Origin: Calditrichia bacterium
GTDB lineage: Bacteria; Calditrichota; Calditrichia; RBG-13-44-9; J075
Assembly (NCBI GenBank): GCA_028284905.1
Contig: JANQQU010000034.1
Coordinates: 1-64,000 of the forward strand
Direction of reading: 5' to 3'
DNA: 64,000 bases
Shown: positions 45,076 to 48,692 of the stretch, one piece after another
Layout of the letters: each line of letters opens with the position of its first letter
Numbering within the stretch: position 1 is the first letter of the stretch
The notes under the pieces: model-generated
The model's input: the letters and a program-made list of their open reading frames with translations, nothing else
The model's database searches: none
What the model was told of the DNA's origin: nothing
Translations under genes and position numbers: made by a program

Positions 45076-46209
45076 TTACAACGTTCCCCGGCTTTCCTGC
45101 TCGCGTTCAATCGCTTCGAACAGTGCTTTGAAATTTCCTTTACCGAATGACCGTGCACCCTTCCGCTGGATGATCTCAAAGAACATCGTCGGGCGGGGAT
45201 TGACTGGTTTGGTGAAAATTTGCAGCAGATATCCTTCATCATCGCGGTCTACCAAAATTCCCAATTCACGCAGCGGTTCAAGATCTTCATCGATCTCTCC
45301 GACCCGATCGAGCAGCACATCGTAATACGTGCCGGGGACTCTCAGAAATTCTACGCCACGGTTGCGCATGGCGGTCACCGTTTCAATAATATTGTCTGTC
45401 GCCACCGCGATATGCTGTACACCTGCGCCTTCGTAAAATTCCAGATATTCGTCAATCTGCGACTTCTTCAAACCTTCCGCCGGCTCATTGATCGGGAACT
45501 TGATGCGGCCATTGCCATTTGCCATCACCTTGCTCATCAGGGCGGTATAATCGGTGGAAATGTCTTTATCATCGAAAGAAACAATCTGGGTAAAGCCCAT
45601 GACATTTTTATAGAAATCCACCCAATAGTTCATTTTCCCCAATTCTACATTGCCAACCATATGATCGACATACTGTAGCCCTATTGCGGCCGGCTGATAT
45701 TCCGGTTCCCATTTTGCATAACCAGGGAGAAACGTGCCATGATAATCCTTCCGCTCGACAAAAATATGAACGACTTCCCCATACGAATAAATACCAGAGC
45801 GAACCACTTTGCCGGTTTCGTCCTCTTCTACGGTTGGGGTCATAAAGGATGTCGCGCCACGTTTAATCGCTTCTTCGTAGGCATAAGTGGCATCATCGAC
45901 CCACAGTGCGGTTACCTTAACACCATCCCCGTGGCGGTCGAGATGCATGCCAATCTCGGAATTACTATTCAAGGGTGAGGTTAATACCAGGCGAATTTTA
46001 TCCTGAACCACAACGTATGATTCGCGGTCCCGCACACCGGTTTTTAATCCGGAGTAAGCCAGTGGCTGAAAACCAAAGGCAGTTTGATAATAGTGGGCAG
46101 CTTGCAAAGAGTTGCTCACATACAATTCCAAATAGTCAGTACCGTTAATCGGCATAAAATCCGCGGCACCTTCAAAAATTTTCGGCATAGAAGCAGTTGC
46201 ATTACTCAT
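45076..46209 (-). CDS. hppD: 4-Hydroxyphenylpyruvate dioxygenase
   Basis: A 377-residue iron enzyme that turns 4-hydroxyphenylpyruvate into homogentisate, the second step of tyrosine breakdown. Two vicinal-oxygen-chelate halves are present; the 2-His-1-Glu iron ligands are His183 (YVDHMVGNVE), His266 (GVQHIAVATDN) and Glu345 (MFFEIIQRKG), spaced as in characterised enzymes. GAGGTG precedes the ATG. It lies 123 bases after hmgA on the same strand, and the gap holds a hairpin element. Homogentisate is the substrate of the neighbouring gene product, so the two act in sequence. The later enzymes (maleylacetoacetate isomerase, fumarylacetoacetase) are not in the window. Confidence 0.97.
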   Translation of the reverse strand: MSNATASMPKIFEGAADFMPINGTDYLELYVSNSLQAAHYYQTAFGFQPLAYSGLKTGVRDRESYVVVQDKIRLVLTSPLNSNSEIGMHLDRHGDGVKVTALWVDDATYAYEEAIKRGATSFMTPTVEEDETGKVVRSGIYSYGEVVHIFVERKDYHGTFLPGYAKWEPEYQPAAIGLQYVDHMVGNVELGKMNYWVDFYKNVMGFTQIVSFDDKDISTDYTALMSKVMANGNGRIKFPINEPAEGLKKSQIDEYLEFYEGAGVQHIAVATDNIIETVTAMRNRGVEFLRVPGTYYDVLLDRVGEIDEDLEPLRELGILVDRDDEGYLLQIFTKPVNPRPTMFFEIIQRKGARSFGKGNFKALFEAIEREQESRGTL

Positions 46210-46332: not shown

Positions 46333-47502
46333 TTAAACAAACTCCGGTGCCAGCCAGGAGCGATAATACTCACCATCATCAATATCCAGGGCATTTTTAG
46401 TAATCATCAATGGCTTGAAGGTATCGATCATCACTGCCAGTTCTCCGGTTTCTTTTTTACCGATGCTCCGCTCGTAGGCACCGGGGTGCGGACCGTGAGG
46501 AATGCCACCGGGATGCAGGGTGATATGACCTTGCTCAATATGATTACGGCTCATAAAATCCCCATCGACATAGTAAAGCATTTCATCGGAATCGATATTG
46601 GAATGATTATACGGTGCCGGAATTGCCTCCGGATGATAATCGTATAAGCGCGGACAGAAAGAGCAAACCACGAATGTCGATGTTTCAAAGGTCTGGTGTA
46701 CTGGCGGCGGCTGATGCACCCGCCCGGTGATCGGTTCGAAGTTGTGAATCGAAAAGCCATAGGGAAAGTTGTAACCATCCCAGCCGATCACATCAAACGG
46801 ATGGGTGGCATAAACCATCTCATGGAGATGTCCCTGCTTTTTGATTTTCATGAGAAATTCGCCGGTTTCATCGTAAGTCTCCAGCTCGGTGGGCATTTTA
46901 TAATCCCGCTCGCAGAAAGGAGAATGCTCCAGCAATTGCCCGAACCAGTTGCGGTAGCGTTTCGGAGTGTAAATCGGATGAAAAGATTCCGAGTACAATA
47001 TGCGGTTATCTTCAGTATCAAACTCGATCTGATAAATCATTCCCCGCGGAATAATCAGATAATCGCCGTATTCGAATGGCACATTCCCCAGCATGGTGCG
47101 CAAAGTGCCGCTGCCCCGGTGAATGAAAAGCATCTCATCGGCATCCGCATTTTTGTAGAAATAGTCGCGTACGGAATGACGTGGCGCTGCCAGCCCAATA
47201 TGAATATCATTATTCACCAGCAGGGGTACCCGGCTTTCCAGAAAGTCATCTGCCGGCCGCACATCGAACCCTTTTAGCAATCGCGCCTGCATATTTTTTT
47301 CGACAGCGATCGCCGGCGTAAGATCACGGGATTTTCCAATCGCCTGCACCTGGGTTGGGCGGTGCACATGATAGGACAATGAGGCCATCCCGTCGAAACC
47401 AATGGTACCAAATAATTGCTCGTTATACAATCCCCCGTCCGGTTTACGAAAAATAGTATGGCGCTTTGGAGGAATCTTGCCAAGCTTGTGATAAATAGGC
47501 AT
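46333..47502 (-). CDS. hmgA: Homogentisate 1,2-dioxygenase
   Basis: A 389-residue cupin-type iron dioxygenase that opens the ring of homogentisate to maleylacetoacetate. The C-terminal metal site is seen in YNHSNIDSDEMLYYVDGD and GIPHGPHPGAYE, and the family stretch NFEPITGRVHQPPPVHQTFE precedes it. The open frame runs back to 47658, but the ATG at 47502 has AGGAGA upstream and gives MPIYHKLGKIPPKRH, the usual start. It is somewhat shorter than the human enzyme (445 residues), as is normal for this bacterial subgroup. It is first in the unit, followed by hppD, and divergent from a MarR-type regulator. Confidence 0.95.
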   Translation of the reverse strand: MPIYHKLGKIPPKRHTIFRKPDGGLYNEQLFGTIGFDGMASLSYHVHRPTQVQAIGKSRDLTPAIAVEKNMQARLLKGFDVRPADDFLESRVPLLVNNDIHIGLAAPRHSVRDYFYKNADADEMLFIHRGSGTLRTMLGNVPFEYGDYLIIPRGMIYQIEFDTEDNRILYSESFHPIYTPKRYRNWFGQLLEHSPFCERDYKMPTELETYDETGEFLMKIKKQGHLHEMVYATHPFDVIGWDGYNFPYGFSIHNFEPITGRVHQPPPVHQTFETSTFVVCSFCPRLYDYHPEAIPAPYNHSNIDSDEMLYYVDGDFMSRNHIEQGHITLHPGGIPHGPHPGAYERSIGKKETGELAVMIDTFKPLMITKNALDIDDGEYYRSWLAPEFV

Positions 47503-47708
47503 ATCTATCTCCTGTTTTAAATGTTTTAATCTCTCCACCGCTCCCAGACAGTGGAGGCAAATGCGGCTTTTATGTGAAGCTATTCTGATATCAAAGTGAT
47601 GATTTTTCCATCGGAATTCAAATGCATTTAGAAAACATCCAATGGCACTACCGGGCATTACCGGTTTGACTTGCTATAAAATATTATGTATTATCCACAC
47701 AGAATAAA

Positions 47709-47746
47709 TAGTTGAAGCCTCAACAAAATAGTTGAAGATTCAACTA
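47709..47746. promoter_or_regulatory. Double palindrome, candidate MarR operator
   Basis: GTTGA-AGCC-TCAAC (47711-47724) and TAGTTGAA-GA-TTCAACTA (47729-47746) lie between hmgA and the divergent marR gene. Both contain GTTGA-N4-TCAAC, and their centres are 20 bases apart, about two helix turns, on one face of the DNA. MarR proteins such as MexR bind GTTGA half-sites, so this is a strong candidate site for the adjacent regulator, controlling both itself and tyrosine degradation. Confidence 0.7.
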
Positions 47747-47775
47747 TTGTCAATATTTTTTTACGAAGGATGGAG

Positions 47776-48222
47776 ATGGATTTAACACATGGTTACGCCT
47801 TCCTGATGGACCGGGCGCTCAAGCGGGTGCAGATCGCATACTTACGGACATTTAAAAAACATGATATCGATTTAACCATCGAACAGTGGGTCATTCTGCA
47901 TAGAATTTATATGCTGGGAGAGAATGCTTCTCAAGCGGAAATTACCAAAGCCAACTACCGGGATAAAGCGGCGACTTCAAAAGTAATTCTGGGGTTAAAG
48001 AACAAGGGACTGATCCTTAAGGAACGGTTTACCGACGACCAAAAACGATTTAAGCTGGTCATTACACCCAAAGGGCATCAGCTGATTAAGAAAACGTTGC
48101 CGCTGGTGGAGGATTTAAGAGAAATAGGTTTCGGCAATATTTCCCTGATGGATTTGGAGGTATTCACGAAAGTGGTTAACCAGATTTGGGAAAACTATAA
48201 AAACACTGCTTCCGAGCTTTAA
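47776..48222 (+). CDS. MarR-family transcriptional regulator, likely of hmgA/hppD
   Basis: A 148-residue winged-helix regulator. The DNA-binding core reads VILHRIYMLGENASQAEITK, RDKAATSKVILGLKNKGLIL and the wing FTDDQKRFKLVITPKG. An in-frame ATG at 47770 lies too near the GAAGG to be used well, so the ATG at 47776 is preferred. It is transcribed away from hmgA-hppD across a gap with a double palindrome. MarR proteins usually repress neighbouring genes and let go on binding an aromatic ligand, so homogentisate or 4-hydroxyphenylpyruvate is a fair inferred inducer. Confidence 0.9.
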   Translation: MDLTHGYAFLMDRALKRVQIAYLRTFKKHDIDLTIEQWVILHRIYMLGENASQAEITKANYRDKAATSKVILGLKNKGLILKERFTDDQKRFKLVITPKGHQLIKKTLPLVEDLREIGFGNISLMDLEVFTKVVNQIWENYKNTASEL

Positions 48223-48292
48223 TAATTTGTGATTGTTTGCAGCCCAGCCTATCCTATATAAACATCCGATTCATTTTTAAACGCTCAACCTT

Positions 48293-48647
48293 CTCCTCGT
48301 TACCAAACTCCCATTTGGTAACGTTATTATGCTCAAAACTTTGTTTTGAGTCTATCCAGCAGTAGAGATGACAACTCCTGTCACAGGAAACAGAGTTTCC
48401 TTAATTATTGCGTAACCATCTCGGCAGCCGGGATGGTTACGAGAAATTTAAAAGGGAAAATGGGGAACATGGAGTATTACTGATACTCTAAATTTCCAGC
48501 CTATCTCCTCGTTACCAAACTCCCGTTTGGTAACGGTATTATGTTCAAAACTCTGTTTTGAGTCTATCGAGCAGTGGAGATTGCGAATCTCTTCACGGGA
48601 AACAGAGTTTCCCTAATAATTGCGTTACCAAACTGGAGTTTGGTAAC
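48293..48647. repeat. Two 121-base direct copies of a multi-hairpin module
   Basis: Copies at 48293-48413 and 48505-48625 have equal length and share most bases. Each holds a chain of small palindromes in the same order: GTTACCAAACT/[AG]TTTGGTAAC, CAAAAC/GTTTTG, a variable one, then GGAAAC-AGA-GTTTCC. Each copy is followed by another stem: GTAACCATC/GATGGTTAC (48412-48440) or GTTACCAAACT-GG-AGTTTGGTAAC (48624-48647). The rest of the 470-base gap between marR and the GH3 gene holds nothing I recognise. There are no spacers of CRISPR type. Confidence 0.8.
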
Positions 48648-48692
48648 GAGGAGTAACGTGGGACATTACTGCTACTATAAAAATCCAGACTA

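Follow-up and report, generated by a model that had tools for sequence, protein, structure and literature searches.

The gap between a MarR-family gene and the divergent hmgA-hppD genes of tyrosine degradation carries a twin palindrome that, judging from its sequence and surroundings, is a genuine twin operator of the MarR type through which marR and hmgA-hppD are most likely both repressed, an ordinary kind of bacterial switch. We consider it probable that the adjacent MarR protein is the repressor acting there; an aromatic intermediate would release it. Hereafter, the window designates the whole stretch of 64,000 nucleotides that was analysed.

Genes and palindromes of the marR-hmgA gap

The relevant features of the window are the following:

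45076..46209, minus strand: hppD, 4-hydroxyphenylpyruvate dioxygenase (NCBIfam equivalog)
46333..47502, minus strand: hmgA-like homogentisate 1,2-dioxygenase of the short type (Pfam HgmA_N; start from alignment)
47666..47694, plus strand: predicted marR promoter, TTGACT, 17-nt spacer, TATTAT (consensus match only)
47711..47724, no strand: predicted operator site 1, GTTGAAGCCTCAAC, 3' of the -10 predicted for marR, covering the likewise predicted transcription start of hmgA
47725..47753, minus strand: predicted hmgA-hppD promoter, TTGACA (47753-47748), 17-nt spacer, TATTTT (47730-47725) (consensus match only)
47727..47748, no strand: predicted operator site 2, perfect 22-bp palindrome AATAGTTGAAGATTCAACTATT with core 47731-47744, filling the spacer of the predicted hmgA promoter
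47770..48222, plus strand: MarR-family regulator of 148-150 aa (Pfam; start probably 47776)

The regulator contains a MarR winged-helix domain scoring above the curated cut-offs (PF01047, 32.4 bits against 24.6; PF12802, 28.9 against 27) and falls below those of the NCBIfam SlyA and HpaR equivalogs (42.5 of 120 and 29.1 of 121.2 bits, respectively). The spacing of the ribosome-binding site, assessed by eye, makes 47776 a more likely start than 47770, and the rightward marR stands alone. On the opposite strand, hppD passes its NCBIfam cut-off (446.6 bits for 277), while the product of hmgA exceeds the Pfam HgmA_N cut-off and remains below the NCBIfam one (60.3 bits vs 510.75), as a divergent protein of the short type. 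Alignment with relatives places the hmgA start at 47502 rather than at the start of the longer ORF at 47658; consequently, the palindromes lie upstream of both genes, at approximately 30-65 bp from marR and 210-240 bp from hmgA. The earlier note had located them in a promoter region shared by divergent genes: the gene layout is as it described, whereas the sites are close to marR and more than 200 bp away from the hmgA start. Downstream (3') of marR, the repeats CTCCTCGTTACCAAACTCCC and GGAAACAGAGTTTCC, recognised by eye at 48280-48340, 48500-48560 and 48620-48660, resemble a dispersed-repeat intergenic element.

The pair of GTTGA-N4-TCAAC palindromes that had been claimed is exact, at 47711-47724 and 47731-47744, with centres at 47717.5 and 47737.5, hence 20 bp or about 1.9 helical turns apart; two dimers could plausibly bind, and perhaps cooperate, on the same DNA face. 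These are the only two zero-mismatch sites of the 64-kb window. Site 2 extends to a full palindrome of 22 bp at 47727-47748, AATAGTTGAA-GA-TTCAACTATT, the flanks of site 1 are less symmetric, and the whole twin element can also be read as a direct repeat of 19 nt recurring at a step of 20 nt. Single sites show no enrichment: allowing up to 2 mismatches, the window contains 20 of them for 27.7 expected, and AGTTGANNNNTCAACT at 1 mismatch has 22 palindromic places genome-wide for 20 in the control. The tandem TTGA-N4-TCAA pair, on the other hand, occurs at a single place of the 8.55-Mb genome, for approximately 0.08 expected from base composition (0.0002 for the GTTGA form) and none for the reversed control pattern. 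The tandem pair is not a product of chance.

AGTTGANNNNTCAAC was found at five places of the genome, the twin being counted once. Three of these are inside ORFs; the remaining two fall in the marR/hmgA-hppD gap and, on contig C3, in the promoter of a paralogue of MarR. Sixteen of the 22 AGTTGANNNNTCAACT places were checked for position (15 loci and C66:64997), the remaining six including site 1: ten are within ORFs, three correspond to site 2 of the gap and two sites of contig C3, and three are imperfect places outside ORFs (L195, L196, L199). A wider regulon is not claimed. No exact site was found near the fumarylacetoacetase gene, located elsewhere in the genome, which counts against our reading of the element as a switch of the pathway.

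Predicted promoters and competing explanations

Two sigma-70-like sites were found in 47480-47800 vs 1.3 expected from shuffles, a count that is not significant alone, and both promoters are consensus matches for a host whose sigma factors may differ from the sigma-70 consensus used. The 17-nt spacer of the predicted minus-strand hmgA promoter is exactly filled by the second palindrome, and the predicted plus-strand marR promoter lies upstream of both palindromes with site 1 just downstream of it. Such a placement is as would be expected for a repressor site facing both ways. In several relatives, an operator-like site touches or just follows a -10-like box, or abuts a -35/-10-like pair.

We propose that one MarR dimer would bind each palindrome. 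In the leftward hmgA-hppD promoter, site 2 would separate the -35 from the -10, and MarR bound there would exclude RNA polymerase. Site 1 would cover the hmgA start point and positions +9 to +22, approximately, of the rightward marR promoter, so that the pair would also confer autorepression; repression in both directions would best explain the layout. An aromatic compound of the pathway would then bind MarR and cause its release, switching both units on; the likeliest candidates would be homogentisate, its quinone and 4-hydroxyphenylpyruvate, and we infer that the ligand would be one of the first two. Homogentisate itself is a hydroquinone; together with the mhqRED gene order around the MarR paralogue of contig C3 (see below), this makes a quinone or hydroquinone ligand a fair guess by analogy.

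The twin site could instead serve marR autorepression only, hmgA-hppD being expressed from a nearer promoter and otherwise controlled. The sites are nearer to marR than to hmgA, and among relatives it is chiefly the marR gene itself that has kept one in front of it; the leader predicted for hmgA, at about 216 nt, is a long one, which also counts against repression in both directions. Yet site 2 forms the spacer of the sole sigma-70-like promoter found on the minus strand of 47480-47800, and the neighbouring gene also bears a copy in two relatives; we hold autorepression alone to be rather improbable. Much less probable is an RNA hairpin, either attenuator or terminator, in the marR leader. The strand does fold at -16.7 kcal/mol (z -3.7), as any such inverted repeat must, but no terminator-like site was found in the 47480-47800 region, no Rfam family exceeded its threshold (one match had E 0.16 and 23.6 bits vs a gathering score of 111), and most relatives carry a single short palindrome, insufficient for a stable hairpin. 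We give the least credit to the view that the palindromes arose by chance or serve some unrelated regulator whose gene lies elsewhere: the genome has about as many single near-matches as the control, but its tandem pair is unique and the motif recurs at the same position before related marR genes.

Related regulators and history of the arrangement

The same gene order being absent elsewhere, footprinting was run on the relatives of the regulator instead. Run against 40 class genomes, a profile of eight relatives retrieved 13 close members scoring at least 90 bits, the next match scoring 63 bits. Each locus was scored by its best match to AGTTG-N6-CAACT (10 bases) within 90 bp before the start codon, with per-locus shuffles. 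By this consensus, itself derived from some of the 13 (L109 and L132 were not used), seven close relatives reach 9 or 10 matching bases (P at most 0.004 in the per-locus shuffles), three score 7 and three score 6; among 21 other MarR genes of the class, one scores 9 and the rest 6-7. Thirty further members were read beyond the class, from 385 genomes of many groups, four of them scoring 9-10. A palindromic site overlapping the regulator's own promoter region is kept in seven of the 13 close relatives. That six of 13 close and 26 of 30 outside relatives have no site of 9-10 of 10 counts against the operator that we favour.

Sites also accompany neighbouring genes. GTTGATGTATCAAC lies upstream of the MarR paralogue of contig C3, and a near copy of it, AGTTGATGTATCAATT, precedes the following gene; this locus (L048:1844-4445) encodes the MarR paralogue, a glyoxalase-fold protein and an Abhydrolase_2 protein, in an mhqRED-like order. 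The site of another paralogue of the same genome, on contig C39, is GTTGCATATGCAAC, before an HlyD-type gene, and in genome G003 the nearest MarR homologue is preceded by TTGATATATCAA and the neighbouring gene by TTGATATGTCAA. A second predicted twin operator, with a spacing of 15 bp, precedes a MarR gene of genome G038 (L154:4331-4361) followed by genes that are efflux-pump-like by eye only; consequently, twin operators are not peculiar to the window. The claim of a MarR operator in the gap finds good support in the motif preceding related marR genes and the neighbour of a paralogue, as well as in its overlap with predicted promoters.

The recognition helix of these proteins may offer a lead. 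In a hand-picked set of 14 loci, five of the seven proteins with alanine after D-K have sites with A at the fifth base of both half-sites, and none of the seven with threonine or proline do (Fisher P 0.021, ignoring relatedness). Some sites of the set are weak: L131 and L108 match at only 7 of 10 bases, the half-sites of L108 reading C/C, and L235 at 8 of 10. Dropped before the count were L110 (alanine, no clear site), L106, L111 and L135 (no site), the weaker L212, L224, L229 and L231, and other outside-class loci with no clear site. The MarR of the window, with alanine and GTTGA sites, follows the trend. Tentatively, and with more doubt than confidence, one may suppose that this MarR branch reads AGTTG-N6-CAACT by a simple code (alanine for GTTGA, threonine or proline for GTTGC or GTTGT), and that an hmgA-hppD operon of recent assembly captured one of its efflux- or quinone-type repressors in this lineage, each of the two facing promoters receiving a copy of the operator.

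No MarR gene was found near hmgA in the stretches read of the 12 other class genomes with hmgA, those of G004 and G018 ending at contig ends, nor in 31 genomes outside the class (all 31 matching at E 1e-60), where the neighbourhoods of G302 and G368 were short, the second hmgA copy of G285 was left out and the profile applied would miss very distant MarR proteins. The MarR-hmgA pairing is found only in the window genome among those compared, which counts against the proposed switch. Upstream of hmgA, the 31 non-class genomes have no site of at least 9 of 10 (best 8). None of 11 other class loci reaches 9 of 10 within 500 bp, in a scan that covered only 61 bp of G004, left out two G018 fragments and recovered the window twin as a control. 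The sole exact TTGA-N4-TCAA of these 11 stretches lies in G003, at the end of FAH.

The hmgA of the window is 89% identical to that of G003, 66% and 65% to those of genomes outside the class and approximately 50% to those of other class members. Being nearer to outside genomes than to the rest of the class, the hmgA genes of the window and G003 may have been acquired by horizontal transfer, as these identities suggest. G003 carries FAH-hmgA without MarR, and its hppD, 54% identical to that of the window, is on another contig; consequently, marR-hmgA-hppD seems to be a recent arrangement, particular to this lineage. Its regulator apparently derives from a branch whose members elsewhere lie beside efflux genes and quinone-response genes of the MhqR kind; recruitment to tyrosine degradation would have taken place in this lineage.

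The 120-bp FAH-hmgA gap of G003 contains a 13-mer, TAGTTGAAGATTC (L032:1443-1455), that equals half of site 2 and adjoins a shared AAACATTTAAAA leader; one of 300 Markov shuffles reached 13. It is possibly a decayed operator relic and is not used as evidence here.

Comparison with known regulators

The use of GTTGA half-sites by MexR, stated in the earlier note, is correct according to PMC9892617 and PMC10609311. In Pseudomonas aeruginosa, the MexR sites PI and PII each consist of an inverted GTTGA pair and overlap the mexR promoter and that of the efflux operon; a single dimer is suggested for each site (PMC9892617). The window too has two inverted-GTTGA sites between divergent genes, a likeness that leaves half-site spacing aside, whereas MexR controls efflux rather than catabolism. 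MexR structures are only some among many MarR matches to the subfamily profile.

MhqR of Staphylococcus aureus and Bacillus subtilis is described as a MarR repressor with an operator over its own start, inactivated by methylhydroquinone; the S. aureus mhqRED order is MarR-dioxygenase-carboxylesterase, and MhqR answers to hydroquinones (PMC6798810). The gene order of the C3 paralogue (MarR, glyoxalase-fold protein, Abhydrolase_2) is that of mhqRED. The MhqR operator of that account is of a 9-9 bp TATCTCGAA type, unlike that of the window, and the window MarR is found beside hmgA-hppD rather than mhqED. HmgR of Pseudomonas putida, reported as a homogentisate-pathway repressor with homogentisate as anti-repressor (PMC5343134), shares the pathway of the window MarR and differs in protein family (IclR vs MarR). 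A divergently encoded MarR repressor that early compounds of a pathway release is presented as a standard pattern (PMC5487221), and in Rhodococcus ruber an hmgR of the MarR type is annotated together with hmgA (PMC6498646).

A close parallel is HmgS, a MarR-family protein of Alteromonadales/Pseudoalteromonadales given as the predicted regulator of hmgAB (PMC5343134). TACTCTCA-N2-TGAGAGTA precedes hmgA in all four Pseudoalteromonas loci compared (L065, L066, L067, L069), and a divergent MarR gene is annotated in three of them, the fourth record being without annotation there; in these marR-hmgA gaps, the motif is a clear candidate HmgS operator. From genus and layout, we infer that the four are the published HmgS loci. 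They resemble the window by a marR divergent from hmgA and a palindrome in the gap (L065, L066, L067). They differ by a single TACTCTCA-N2-TGAGAGTA operator where the window has twin GTTGA sites, the two motifs not being the same, by maiA after hmgA where the window has hppD, and by an hmgA that matches the short one of the window weakly (27-28% over part of its length).

A literature search brought up no paper that we recognised as dealing with this operator, or with a MarR at hmgA in this lineage. The gap offers a local regulon that is concrete and open to testing, in a lineage that has been little studied, and points to a MarR branch that lends itself to comparing operators with recognition helices over many genomes. 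It would also represent another apparently independent takeover of the homogentisate pathway by a local regulator, besides the IclR, LysR, TyrR-type and HmgS cases listed in PMC5343134. MarR control of hmgA having already been predicted elsewhere, as HmgS in that account, the window would work likewise, with another operator.
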